From a virus: a stretch of 64,000 nucleotides of DNA. The notes beneath the pieces were generated by a model. It was not told the origin of the DNA. It did not search any database and was given only the letters and a program-made list of their open reading frames with translations. The position numbers were made by a program, and so were the translations under genes. Position 1 is the first letter of the stretch; every line of letters begins with the position of its first letter. Below, piece after piece: positions 13,799 through 41,435 of the stretch. The stretch lies in the IMG/VR virus record IMGVR_UViG_3300035034_000851, positions 24,951-88,950 of that record; one strand, written 5' to 3'.

Positions 13799-15395
13799 AT
13801 TGAAATTCAATAGGTAAAGAAACATTTTCCCTGTCTCTGTTTATTTCAGCATACATATTTTCATATCTATCATTATTAAACACTGTTCTTCTATAATTTA
13901 TATATGAAGATAACTTATCATATATTTCAGTATTTACATCTTTTATTGGAGAAATAACATCTAATAAAGTTATCTTTTCTCTTTGTTTAAGAATCTTATC
14001 TTGATTATTTTCAGCATAAGTTAAAAGACTAGAACATATTAACATCCAATGAACCATTACTGAATAATGAATTGTAGATTGATGTAATCTAAATTCTACT
14101 GTTTTAGAGTTACTAAACATTAATGGTAATAAGTTTACGTGATAGTATCTAGAATTAAAATTCCATTTTCTAGCACCTTCTTTAGGATGTTTACGAGTTT
14201 CAAAGTTATAAGTATCATCTTCTGGAGTTCCATCTGCTAAAAATTGAAAAACTTTTTTAAATTCTTCATTTATAACAGTATTTTTGTCTGCGTTTTCTTT
14301 AAACATTCTATTAGTGTTTAAAGCTAATCCAGATAAAGGTTGACAATGATCTTTAACACGACCATTTTGTCCTCTTTTATTTGCAAAATATTGTACATCT
14401 CTTTTATAAGGAGGCACTATTTCAAACATTTCATTTTGAAGTCTGTAACAAAGAGTATATAAAGATAAAATTGATTTTTTAGTACAAGGATATTTACCAA
14501 AGTGAATATGTAAAGAACATTGTTCATCAGTTTCACATCTTTTATTCATCTCAGAAAAAACAGATCTTAGAGTAGCAACACCTTTTATACCTTCTAAAGG
14601 TACAGTGGTGTATTCTACTCCTCCTATAGATCCATCTCTTAAAGGTACTAAACCATTTTTATGCAAAATAGGTTCTGGTACATGACCTAAAGAAGTTTCT
14701 ATTTCTAAACCAAAAGATTTGTTACCTATGATTTTTAATAAATCTTTATCAAGTTTATTACCTTCGTGTTTTGCAATTTTATATCCTTTTTTTATAGAAT
14801 TACCTAAAGCATTATTATCTGCTATATTGTAAGGTAATAAATCAAAATCATATCTAGCTCTTCCTTTTTTGGACATTGATTTTATTTCATAAGGTGATAA
14901 AGAACTTTTACAGTAATAATTACCATCTGATAAAGATTCTATAAAACCAAGTTCTAAACATAAAGCAACTGAAACACAATACAGTGGATTTTTATCACTG
15001 TCATCTAAAAATGTATTAGAAATTATTTTCTTCATAACAAATTTCTTTCTGTGCTCTTTTTCTCCTCGTTTATTTATAAAAACAGATTGACCGTAAGATA
15101 ATTTTACAGTTTTTTCTGTAGGCTCATAATATCCTACAACAGCTATATTATTAACATCTGTATTTAATATACCAAAAACTAATCCTCTCTTAGTTCTTTG
15201 CCATAATTTATTAGTATGATTATAATAGATTTTACCAGAATTAATTCTGTAATAGCTACCATTTGTCATTTTAAAACAAGATTCATCAATAATATAATGT
15301 TCTCCATTTATTAATCTTGTATTTTCTGCATTTGCGTCTATTAATTCCATTTTGGAATCAAAAGCTTTTATTGTTTCTAGTTTGTTATTTGGCAT
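13791..15395 (-). CDS. Amidoligase family enzyme (glutamine-synthetase-like fold)
   Basis: A 534-aa protein. The central part carries the amidoligase signature KSFGLEIETSLG near residue 225, RDGSIGGVEYTTVP near 255, CSLHIHFGKYP near 293 and RYYHVNLLPL...KTVEFRLHQST near 415. These correspond to the E-x-E, H-x-H and R/E metal- and ATP-binding residues of the COOH-NH2 ligase superfamily, which joins carboxyl and amino groups with ATP. The N-terminal 200 residues are of unknown type. It opens a cluster with a class II glutamine amidotransferase, ATP-grasp ligase, GGCT-like protein and second amidoligase, overlapping the next gene by 11 bases. Confidence 0.8.
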   Translation of the reverse strand: MPNNKLETIKAFDSKMELIDANAENTRLINGEHYIIDESCFKMTNGSYYRINSGKIYYNHTNKLWQRTKRGLVFGILNTDVNNIAVVGYYEPTEKTVKLSYGQSVFINKRGEKEHRKKFVMKKIISNTFLDDSDKNPLYCVSVALCLELGFIESLSDGNYYCKSSLSPYEIKSMSKKGRARYDFDLLPYNIADNNALGNSIKKGYKIAKHEGNKLDKDLLKIIGNKSFGLEIETSLGHVPEPILHKNGLVPLRDGSIGGVEYTTVPLEGIKGVATLRSVFSEMNKRCETDEQCSLHIHFGKYPCTKKSILSLYTLCYRLQNEMFEIVPPYKRDVQYFANKRGQNGRVKDHCQPLSGLALNTNRMFKENADKNTVINEEFKKVFQFLADGTPEDDTYNFETRKHPKEGARKWNFNSRYYHVNLLPLMFSNSKTVEFRLHQSTIHYSVMVHWMLICSSLLTYAENNQDKILKQREKITLLDVISPIKDVNTEIYDKLSSYINYRRTVFNNDRYENMYAEINRDRENVSLPIEFQYE

Positions 15396-17148
15396 TTGTA
15401 GTTGTTAATTTGTAAAATTCTTCCAATTCTATTAAAAATTCTAAATCTTCGTTATCCATGCTAACTATGTTTTTTGAATACATATTAAACACAAATTCAA
15501 ATATTACTTTGTATATAAATTTTACATCTTCATCTTCTTTTAAATTCATAAAATTACGCAATAAAAGTAAAGCATCTTCAAAATAATCACTTATTTTGTC
15601 TTCAAACTCTTCTAAATCTTTCATTACATCAAAATTATTACCTTTATCAAAAGAATCTAAGATATTAGGTTGATTTCTTTTTTCTAATTCTTCTCTTTTA
15701 TTTAATAATTCTTTTAATACTCCATTTTTTACAACATAAATAAAAGGACTAAAATCATTATAATACTCAAAATCATGTCCACTATCTTTTTCAAAATATA
15801 CATTATTTATAGCACTAAAATTCTTTTTATTATTTCCTTTTAATTTATTTAAAGTTAAAACAGGATGAGTTGGTGAAAATTCACTTATTTGGTAACCTAA
15901 ACAAGTATTTCCAGCTTTTTTTAATACTTTACATCTAGCTTTAGCTTTTATAAAATCTTCAAAATTTTTAAAAGCAACTCCATTTACAAACCATAATTTA
16001 ACAGCATTGAATCTTTTATTTCCATCTACTTTATTCCAAGCATTTTCCATATCTTCTTCTGTGTTAATATTACTATGTAAATCTTTTCTAGTTACTTTAC
16101 TTAAAACAAAACCTCCTTGTAATAATACTCCATTTCTAAAAAATCTAAATTTTTGAAAATATATAGTACTTCCATTGTAAAATTTATCTTTACTTTCTGT
16201 TACAAATAAATTTATATTAACAGATTTATTACTTTTATTCTTTCTATTAGAATATTCTAATCTATCTTGATAATTAGTAACTGAGGTACTACGGCTAGAG
16301 TTATGAGAAACAGGACAAGGGGCTGAAGGATTTAAATCTGCAGTTCTAGATATTATTTGACTACTTTCTATATGTCCTCCTACAAAAGAAATAAGTTCAT
16401 TGTTTTTGAAACTTATAACTTCATCTTCTTCTGCACCTATCATTTGTAAAGATTTAGCTATTGAAGATATGTAAACTCCTGTAATTTTACCTCTACTGTT
16501 AAGTTTTTGGTAATAATACAAAGGTCTTTCTTCATAACCACCACCTCCGCCTTTGAAAGCGTATAAATGGTTGGACTTTGTAACATCTTTAAATAATAAA
16601 GCTGCACCTCCTTCATACTCACTTAAAACTTTAAAAGTTTTGTCTTTATATAAACAAGCAAGTAATCCATGTGAATCTACATCAATATTAATAATACTAA
16701 TGTTTCTGTCTTTACATAATTGTATCCAATTTCTTAAAGTACCATTATGAGCACCTACAAAACCAGCTTCACCTTCTTGATTTTTTAATAGAAAAGGATG
16801 AGCATTTGCAGAAGTTTTTTGCCAACCTACACTTGATTTTCTTGCGTGCATTATACAAGTAAAATCTTCTTTACTTATAGTAGGAAAAGGTTTATCAACA
16901 AAAAAGTCTTTAAAATAAGAATTATTATAAACTCCATAAAATACTTCTTTATTTGAATAAATACCACAAGAATCTCCTCCTCTAGTATCATTCATAATTC
17001 CTAATATTTTTAAAGCATTTTTATCAGGTGTAACTTCTCCACAATAACCAATTAATCCACAATAAAGTGTATTAAAATTGATTTTATTATTTGCTATACC
17101 TATGGCATAACTTATTATTAATAGTAATAAATATATGAATATTATCAT
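15385..17148 (-). CDS. Class II glutamine amidotransferase (Ntn hydrolase) with N-terminal membrane segment
   Basis: Residues 30-230 match the class II glutamine amidotransferase domain: CGLIGYCGE nucleophile start, NDTRGGDSCGIYS near 54, CIMHARKSSVG near 96, and GAHNGTLRNW near 131. These enzymes release ammonia from glutamine or make the reverse transfer, using an N-terminal cysteine. Here Cys30 is preceded by a hydrophobic segment (MIIFIYLLLLIISYAIGIAN) and there is no start codon immediately before it, so either a propeptide is removed or the domain is inactive. The remaining 330 residues are unknown. It sits inside the amidoligase/ATP-grasp cluster with 4-base overlaps. Confidence 0.75.
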   Translation of the reverse strand: MIIFIYLLLLIISYAIGIANNKINFNTLYCGLIGYCGEVTPDKNALKILGIMNDTRGGDSCGIYSNKEVFYGVYNNSYFKDFFVDKPFPTISKEDFTCIMHARKSSVGWQKTSANAHPFLLKNQEGEAGFVGAHNGTLRNWIQLCKDRNISIINIDVDSHGLLACLYKDKTFKVLSEYEGGAALLFKDVTKSNHLYAFKGGGGGYEERPLYYYQKLNSRGKITGVYISSIAKSLQMIGAEEDEVISFKNNELISFVGGHIESSQIISRTADLNPSAPCPVSHNSSRSTSVTNYQDRLEYSNRKNKSNKSVNINLFVTESKDKFYNGSTIYFQKFRFFRNGVLLQGGFVLSKVTRKDLHSNINTEEDMENAWNKVDGNKRFNAVKLWFVNGVAFKNFEDFIKAKARCKVLKKAGNTCLGYQISEFSPTHPVLTLNKLKGNNKKNFSAINNVYFEKDSGHDFEYYNDFSPFIYVVKNGVLKELLNKREELEKRNQPNILDSFDKGNNFDVMKDLEEFEDKISDYFEDALLLLRNFMNLKEDEDVKFIYKVIFEFVFNMYSKNIVSMDNEDLEFLIELEEFYKLTTTNAK

Positions 17149-35210: not shown

Positions 35211-35278
35211 CGAACACACATGGAATCGAACCATAATCTTTTTTAAAAAATGCTTTTACCATTAAGCTATGTGTGTTC
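35211..35278 (-). ncRNA. tRNA-like element lacking a normal anticodon arm
   Basis: A 68-nt element with a perfect GAACACACA/TGTGTGTTC closing helix, a standard D arm (TAGCTTAATGGTAAAAGC) and a T arm with TTCGATT loop between TATGG and CCATG. Where an anticodon arm should be there is only ATTTTTTAAAAAAGAT, too short for a 5-bp stem with a 7-base loop plus variable region. It may be a degraded or processing-signal tRNA. Confidence 0.45.
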
Positions 35279-35367: not shown

Positions 35368-36096
35368 TTAATCTTTTTTTTCATATTCTAGTAGTAATTC
35401 AATTGATCTCATAGTATATGTATCAAACAAAATTTCAGGATGCCATTGTACAGACACTATAGGATAACCTATATATTCCATTGCTTCTATTCTACCAGAA
35501 TCAATTTTACCTAGAGCTGCTGTTACAACTGCTTTTTCAGTGTCACAAACTTTAACACATTGATGATGTCTAGAATTAACATCCATAATGTGATTAACTC
35601 TTTCATCTTTTATTAATATGTATTCTCCTTTTTTAGCACCAGAAGCATGAGTATTAAAGAAATTCTTTAATTCCACTTTTTCTATAACTGCTCCAAATAC
35701 ATATTCAGACAAAGGTTCTATCTTATCTTGAATAAGCTTCATACCAAAATGAGCAGCTAATTCTTGATGACCTCTACAAATGCCAAATATAGGCGTTTTA
35801 CTCTCAACATATAATGGTAATACATTTCTAGTAAAAAAGTCTCTCTGTGGATCTAAACGACCTACTAATGAAGATAATTCTTCATCATAAAGTGCAGGAT
35901 CTACGTCAGCTCCACCAGGTAATATTAAAATGTCTAAGTCTTTAATAAAATCATTAGTATGATGTATTAATACTAAATTTAATGTTTTTTCGGCTCTTCT
36001 TGCTATTTCTTCACAAAATCTTACATAAGCAATTCCCATGCCTACATGACTTCTTACAGTCATATTTGTTACTAATCCAATTTTTAATTTGTTCAT
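35368..36096 (-). CDS. Class I glutamine amidotransferase-like hydrolase (peptidase C26, PuuD-like), copy 2
   Basis: A 242-aa protein with full C26 motifs: LDILILPGGADVDPALYDEE near 52, TPIFGICRGHQELA near 101 with nucleophile Cys, NSRHHQCVKV near 173, and IVSVQWHPEILF near 215 with catalytic His-Glu. PuuD-type enzymes hydrolyse gamma-glutamyl-GABA and similar gamma-glutamyl amides. It is only distantly like copy 1 at 31104, so the two probably have different substrates. Its ATG overlaps the TGA of the preceding small gene. Confidence 0.88.
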   Translation of the reverse strand: MNKLKIGLVTNMTVRSHVGMGIAYVRFCEEIARRAEKTLNLVLIHHTNDFIKDLDILILPGGADVDPALYDEELSSLVGRLDPQRDFFTRNVLPLYVESKTPIFGICRGHQELAAHFGMKLIQDKIEPLSEYVFGAVIEKVELKNFFNTHASGAKKGEYILIKDERVNHIMDVNSRHHQCVKVCDTEKAVVTAALGKIDSGRIEAMEYIGYPIVSVQWHPEILFDTYTMRSIELLLEYEKKD

Positions 36097-40917: not shown

Positions 40918-40951
40918 AATGTTAAATTGTTAAAATGTTAAATTATTATTG

Positions 40952-41321
40952 TGGAGGTGCTGGGAGTCGAACCCAGGTCCAAAATGTTAATCATAAATAA
41001 ATTGTTACAAGTTTTGTTTTTGTTTGTATTCTTTAAACTAGAATATTAGGCTGTACTACTTAGTACAAGCTCCACCTTTAGCTTTACAGTTTTATCTCTG
41101 TTTTTGGTAATTTAGTTACCAGCTTAAATCAGCCATACTATGCTGCTATTTCTAGCTTAACAGTAGGGAACATCTGTAATACTCCTTGAGCATCAACAGT
41201 TGTATTTGATATTTGTTTGTCGTTTATGACTTGAAACATATTATTTAATGCATTGATAGTTTCATTTTTGCATACTTGTTCGTCTAATCATAGCCATTCT
41301 GTCAAAAGCCAGAACACCCCC
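40952..41321 (-). ncRNA. ssrA: Transfer-messenger RNA (tmRNA)
   Basis: A 370-nt RNA with both ends of tmRNA. The 5' end is GGGGGTG followed by TTCTGGCTTTTGACAG; the 3' end is a T arm CTGGG-TTCGACT-CCCAG then CACCTCC and discriminator A. The acceptor pairs 7/7 with one G-U. CCA is not encoded. Helix 2 is suggested by ACAAGT/ACTTGT. At nucleotide 95, matching the E. coli resume position, GTC-ATA-AAC-GAC begins a frame of 29 codons that ends LEIAA-TAG (stop at 41140-41138). A GGTAA/TTACC hairpin follows. tmRNA rescues stalled ribosomes and tags their products for proteolysis. Confidence 0.9.
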
Positions 41322-41335
41322 ATATTGTTAAAGAG
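41322..41335 (-). promoter_or_regulatory. CTCTTTAACAATA element before tmRNA
   Basis: The 13-mer CTCTTTAACAATA (41335-41323) ends two bases before the mature 5' end of tmRNA. An identical copy at 41435-41423 ends two bases before the closing stem of the hairpin RNA, exactly 100 bases away. It could be a promoter box or a processing site. Confidence 0.45.
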
Positions 41336-41343
41336 TTTAAAAA

Positions 41344-41420
41344 AATAAACAACTGAAGTGCAGTTCAAATGTTTTTACCCAATTATATTCAGTAATACAA
41401 ATTGGTTACAGTTGTTTATT
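41344..41420 (-). ncRNA. Small stem-closed RNA upstream of tmRNA
   Basis: A perfect 12-bp helix AATAAACAACTG/CAGTTGTTTATT followed by seven or more Ts closes 77 bases containing an inner CCAATT/AATTGG hairpin. Its 5' end follows the second copy of the CTCTTTAACAATA 13-mer. It looks like a discrete small RNA with a built-in terminator, placed directly before the tmRNA gene. Confidence 0.5.
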
Positions 41421-41422
41421 AG

Positions 41423-41435
41423 TATTGTTAAAGAG
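41423..41435 (-). promoter_or_regulatory. CTCTTTAACAATA element before the 77-nt RNA
   Basis: Second, identical copy of the 13-mer found before tmRNA. It overlaps the stop codon of the small gene at 41428. Confidence 0.42.

Follow-up and report, generated by a model that had tools for sequence, protein, structure and literature searches.

Phage-encoded tmRNAs are already known (PMC4131195; PMC9004378, with 402 phage genomes), and their purpose has so far been obscure. A candidate of this kind lies in a 64,000-nucleotide stretch of the virus record IMGVR_UViG_3300035034_000851, referred to here as the window, and it raises the questions of whether the RNA is a genuine tmRNA, at which codon translation would resume on it, and what its long tag would do for the phage. 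The virus is a crAss-like phage infecting Bacteroidota, with genes for a crAss-like terminase, portal, and major head protein as well as GroEL.

The tmRNA Gene and Its Surroundings

A first-pass annotation had claimed a phage-encoded tmRNA with clear acceptor pairing at this locus, and had proposed a covariance model and ARAGORN as checks. Both call a one-piece tmRNA on the minus strand (Table 1), with an Rfam RF00023 score of 55.5 bits (E 4.7e-19, model positions 1-374) that lies above the gathering score of 47, and it is the only tmRNA in the 88,950-base virus record. The match is full-length and the acceptor halves stand in one-piece order, not in the permuted two-piece form. The tRNA-like acceptor pairs completely and includes G3-U70, the alanine identity pair, while CCA is not encoded. 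Folding of the RNA beats 100 of 100 dinucleotide shuffles (z -2.8), and pseudoknot 1 can be read just upstream of the resume site, where the GAAAC/GTTTC complementarity had been pointed out.

Table 1. Window positions of the tmRNA gene, its parts, and the adjoining inverted repeat.
Feature	Position	Strand	Basis and details
One-piece tmRNA (ssrA) gene	40951..41321	-	371 nt; ARAGORN and Rfam RF00023
Acceptor stem, 5' strand GGGGGUG	41315..41321	-	Sequence; 7/7 pairs; G3 at 41319
Acceptor stem, 3' strand CACCUCC	40953..40959	-	Sequence; U70 at 40955
Discriminator A	40952	-	
T arm CUGGG-UUCGACU-CCCAG	40960..40976	-	Rfam alignment
Pseudoknot 1	41232..41273	-	Complementarity read from sequence, without covariation support for the window RNA
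Pseudoknot 1, stem 1 AUGCA/UGCAU	41269-41273/41248-41252	-	Sequence complementarity
Pseudoknot 1, stem 2 UGAAAC/GUUUCA	41259-41264/41232-41237	-	Sequence complementarity
Resume-site pentamer UAAAC	41222..41226	-	Profile of 46 host tmRNAs; A86 equivalent at 41225
Tag DKQISNTTVDAQGVLQMFPTVKLEIAA	41141..41221	-	Open frame and resume profile; 27 codons; resume codon GAC at 41219-41221
Tag stop codon TAG	41138..41140	-	Open reading frame
Inverted repeat CAGTTGTTTATT/AATAAACAACTG, then T run	41344..41420 (arms 41344-41355 and 41409-41420)	-	Sequence; just upstream of the tmRNA

These features bear on whether the RNA could be a decoy or a decayed tmRNA that ties up SmpB or lies idle. The mycobacteriophage DS6A carries little beyond the tRNA-like part, a similar molecule inhibits tmRNA (PMC4131195), and the Rfam score is low at 55 bits versus 105-200 in most hosts. 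However, the window gene is full-length, its acceptor, T arm, and resume site are intact, and its tag is open, all of which make this explanation very improbable.

The 12-base inverted repeat with its T run is a possible terminator of the upstream gene; the terminator scan, which disallows so long a loop, did not call it. In the Flavobacterium phage Fpv1, discussed below, a hairpin and a T run likewise stand shortly before the tmRNA. Exact copies of the 13-base sequence CTCTTTAACAATA flank the window repeat, one directly before the tmRNA (41323-41335) and the other 100 bases upstream (41423-41435, minus strand). This 13-mer was rejected as a phage-wide promoter, its near-matches being no commoner than chance. 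Elsewhere in the window, a tRNA-like sequence (35211-35276, minus strand; Rfam 42.4 bits) has an anticodon arm collapsed to ATTTTTTAAAAAAGATT and receives no ARAGORN call; the related phage G004 has an intact tRNA-Arg(TCT) (L013) with a similar acceptor stem. Two glutamine amidotransferase-type proteins, Peptidase C26 and glucosamine-fructose-6-phosphate aminotransferase-like, are encoded at 35368-36096 and 15385-17148 (both minus strand), and a protein like the latter is annotated in Cellulophaga phage phi14:2 too.

Resume Codon and Length of the Tag

A resume profile was built from 46 tmRNAs of Bacteroidota genomes. All of them (46/46) have A at -4 and G at +1, 37 have T at -5, and the distance from the 5' end to the resume codon is 90-103 nt. 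When sites at positions 41-240 of the window tmRNA were scored, the best was GAC at position 101 after UAAAC, at +7.3. Between the GUUUC at the end of pseudoknot 1 and this GAC lie 11 nt, the spacing of E. coli tmRNA. The Rfam alignment sets its UAAuU-GCa onto the same UAAAC-GAC. The invariant A at -4 is the counterpart of A86 of E. coli tmRNA, which is held primarily responsible for frame selection (PMC2481249). Given the invariant A and G of the profile and the best score at GAC, the resume codon is this GAC and not AUA, and the tag is thus the 27-residue peptide DKQISNTTVDAQGVLQMFPTVKLEIAA, with Asp first and TAG as the stop.

The first-pass annotation had instead read 29 codons, ATA-AAC-GAC through LEIAA-TAG. 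That frame exists and is open; its first codon does not hold, the covariance alignment placing the resume site at GAC. By eye, AAGUC-AUA-AAC-GAC looks like the E. coli UAGUC-GCA-AAC-GAC, and the frame is identical; the 29-residue tag would open with Ile-Asn-Asp. Yet AUA scores -17.3, A is the first codon position in none of the 46 host tmRNAs, and related phages open with GGN or GAC immediately after UAANN. A start at AUA is almost certainly wrong, and AAC-GAC matches the E. coli tag by chance, with an offset of two codons. A resume codon for neither Ala nor Gly had also been called unusual, whereas an Asp start is ordinary, GAC being used by 10 of the 46 Bacteroidota tmRNAs. The claim of a long tag was borne out, since the tags of these 46 tmRNAs have 9-10 residues.

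ARAGORN itself reports a resume codon GUU and a 19-residue tag, VDAQGVLQMFPTVKLEIAA, whose VDAQ start lies eight codons late. This reading is hardly credible, as GUU scores only 1.4 on the profile and the program shows the same behavior elsewhere: among 90 tmRNAs of the related family described below that have full flanks, it called 50, of which only 6 received the full tag and 43 an in-frame C-terminal fragment. Long tags of this kind are cut short or overlooked by standard annotation. Lengthening of the tag by TAG recoding was also rejected, given that the standard table leaves the long ORFs unbroken and that a hydrophobic-Ala-Ala end already precedes TAG; a small chance of it remains, TAG being a rare stop here (1 of 36 long ORFs).

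Related Phages With Long Tags

Long tags are not confined to the window. The nearest relative with a different tag is G004, whose terminase is 68% identical to that of the window phage and whose tag, GNSLSNTTVEEFISTMVVAEREVAVA, follows UAACU. Both tags contain SNTTV, with four synonymous changes and no replacements between them. Matches to the SNTTV pattern in bacterial genome contigs numbered ten, none of which has an ARAGORN or Rfam tmRNA. Among isolated phages, the tag is 35 residues long in Fpv1 and 38 in phi14:2, where Ala followed by GNDTDNTQLKANMTVVHNILNGSDALIGSSVQKLAMVA would be expected at the ends of truncated proteins. Long-tag tmRNAs occur in 29 Flavobacterium phage records, all 29 without annotation at the site. 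The phi14:2 gene is overlapped by annotated small hypothetical ORFs and scores 46.0 on Rfam, just under the cut-off. For G182, ARAGORN itself gives a 33-residue tag opening GNNKN after UAAUU, which indicates independently that long tags do not arise from the frame chosen here. In the window, Fpv1, and G186 the tmRNA lies about 9 kb from the terminase gene, in G004 24 kb, and in all four on the opposite strand. The window terminase shares about 35% identity with that of the Flavobacterium phages.

Upstream of the tag, Fpv1, phi14:2, and G186 have in common an RNA element, AGAGATAACTGT...AACTAAGGTGA. A search pattern made from it, in which no more than one and a half codons at the start of the tag are fixed, matched 103 IMG/VR contigs and none of 396 Bacteroidota genomes. 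The frame is open from resume codon to stop in every matched contig except one, where the contig edge ends it. The 68 distinct complete tags of this family, here called the ANM family, span 27-45 residues and have a QxxANMxxV core in which Q, A, N, and M are invariant (68/68) and V is present in 67, ANM thus occurring in every tag although the pattern made no such demand. In 71 distinct coding sequences, which are related by descent so that these counts are not independent events, the tag frame is always open (71/71) and the other two never are (0/71), and mean core entropy at codon positions 1, 2, and 3 is 0.72, 0.45, and 1.02 bits. Invariant residues with varying third codon positions are the mark of selection on the peptide in these phages.

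This conservation weighs against the extra length being neutral, a spacer without function in an otherwise ordinary ClpXP tag. In E. coli, changes to the tag template do little to tmRNA activity (PMC2481249), and the spread of tag lengths within the family would also suit a spacer, but four residues that never change in 68 tags while third positions vary freely would not, a point that holds for the relatives and not for the window tag itself. We regard a neutral spacer as decidedly unlikely. That a motif stays unchanged across many phages, when E. coli tolerates alterations of the template, indicates that the tag itself matters to these phages.

Other parts of these RNAs are conserved as well. 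The Rfam tmRNA cut-off was exceeded by nine of ten sampled family loci. Of 106 relatives, 85 allowed the acceptor to be located; in these all seven pairs form, with 12 stem types, compensatory changes, and G3-U70 in 85/85; as placement required 5' GGG and at least six pairs, the telling part is the invariant U opposite G3. A separate scan based on the peptide found 77 loci, 73 of them with the same resume context. Of the four others, three resume at GAC after UAAAU, and two of these end in LEIAA, like the window tag. The IAA end remarked on earlier is real; it is not odd among related tags, which mostly end hydrophobic-Ala-Ala (VAA in 39/68, IAA in 6/68). Searches of Pfam, PHROGs, and PDB sequences gave no significant protein relative of the tag, and plasmids gave none. 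A terminase of this type is present in 24 of 25 large carriers. A contig of 165,861 bases (L304, G446) combines the long-tag RNA element with a GroEL gene but gives no terminase profile match, and may represent a further phage lineage that carries this tmRNA.

How the window tag relates to this family is less direct. The QxxANMxxV core is absent from it, AQGVLQM standing there instead, and the AGAGATAACTGT...AACTAAGGTGA element is absent before its resume codon. On the family profile the window tag scores a weak 2.5 bits, with 10 of 294 shuffles equally good. When tag ends are held fixed, its likeness to relatives is moderate, with shuffles as good in 17/2000 (L402), 22/2000 (G186), and 3/2000 (G004). 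What it shares with the ANM family is a long tag, the resume context, G3-U70, and a related terminase, and the L402 branch also has its GAC resume codon and LEIAA end. The window tag is probably a diverged sister of the family and not a member, and because it lacks the ANM core, selection seen in the family would extend to it by analogy only.

A Possible Function for the Long Tag

Taken together, these observations are probably best explained by a working phage tmRNA with a 27-residue tag that combines a ClpX-type end with a second recognition segment. The RNA is presumably expressed. It would receive CCA from the host, be recognized through G3-U70 by the alanyl-tRNA synthetase of the host and loaded with alanine, and enter stalled ribosomes together with host SmpB. 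No SmpB gene turned up in the window phage or, more widely, in 29 phage records (0/29), so host SmpB must presumably serve if the RNA works. Translation would then resume at GAC, appending Ala and the 27-residue tag. The C-terminal ALAA of tags is read by ClpX (PMC3985003), and the hydrophobic-Ala-Ala ends of the phage tags fit such reading; EIAA would act as a ClpX-type degron, leading to degradation of tagged proteins. Such an end argues against a simple escape from ClpXP, in contrast to the idea that a phage tag might steer proteins away from host proteases.

The long upstream part of the tag would serve as the second recognition segment, which selection has preserved in the related long-tag phages, and its conservation there supports some added recognition. 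It may dock tagged proteins to a host protease, adaptor, or other partner during infection. What this segment binds is the weakest step of the proposal, and any partner is named tentatively. AlphaFold models the conserved segment as one helix (mean pLDDT 69, low-to-medium confidence). GroEL was dropped as a general tag reader, since a Cpn60 gene is present in no more than 9 of 28 related phage records.

The helix could also be taken as an amphipathic segment through which, in a mycoplasma-like protease switch, host Lon rather than ClpXP would read the long tag. Bacteroidota are not known to lack ClpXP, which counts against such a switch. The extended tag of mycoplasmas and its co-evolution with Lon are precedents cited in PMC3985003, but mycoplasmas are without ClpXP and their tag ends AFA (PMC3985003), whereas the phage ends stay hydrophobic-Ala-Ala. 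A Lon switch is thus unlikely. A bolder and rather doubtful version of added recognition holds that the segment serves these phages as a peptide module dedicated to diverting truncated proteins from ordinary ClpXP turnover, for example to a phage-encoded or hijacked host partner, in which case a widespread group of Bacteroidota phages would reprogram ribosome rescue during infection.

The window tag is about three times the bacterial length, and more than 100 related virus sequences have long conserved tags. The conserved motif offers something concrete to test. Isolated phages (the 29 Flavobacterium phage records and phi14:2) carry long tags, which makes the question directly testable.

Comparison With Known tmRNA Systems

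The one-piece phage tmRNA is a known kind, while long conserved tags in Bacteroidota phages may be new, as far as the open-access literature, where we found no paper on them, can weakly indicate. The window RNA resembles the one-piece tmRNA of Bacteroidota (RF00023) in gene order, acceptor stem, T arm, UAANN-G context, and hydrophobic-Ala-Ala end, and differs in being phage-borne, in its low covariance score, and in a tag of 27 residues instead of 9-10 (GENNYALAA and similar). Some neighboring cases were noted in passing. One Bacteroidota genome has a second, diverged tmRNA (L105, G116:C1:772761-773172; 49 bits) with an ordinary GENNYALAA tag. The RefSeq tmRNA features of the gut crAssphages cr7_1 (L039) and cr124_1 (L040) are doubtful, at 21-25 bits and starred in ARAGORN, and that of cr7_1 overlaps a tRNA-Cys. 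A weak tmRNA of 30 bits (L225, G170) has a possible tag DKTSISSAIDNALNEALVNANSEVLEEALV with an ALV end, as in the mycobacteriophage tag.

Mycobacteriophage tmRNAs of the Bxz1 type are likewise phage-borne and one-piece with a long tag, that of Blubba being ATDTDATVTDAEIEAFFAEEAAALV (25 residues as annotated), but their tags are unrelated in sequence, end in ALV, and serve in an actinobacterial host. The tmRNAs of marine pelagiphages and of the methylophage Melnitz are also phage RNAs that use host factors (PMC9004378), and unlike the window tmRNA they are circularly permuted two-piece molecules.

The extended tag of mycoplasmas has about 27 residues, like the window tag. It differs in ending AFA, where the window tag ends IAA, and in belonging to cells without ClpXP and not to a phage (PMC3985003). 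Read by Lon, this mycoplasma tag is by analogy the nearest precedent for the added recognition proposed here.
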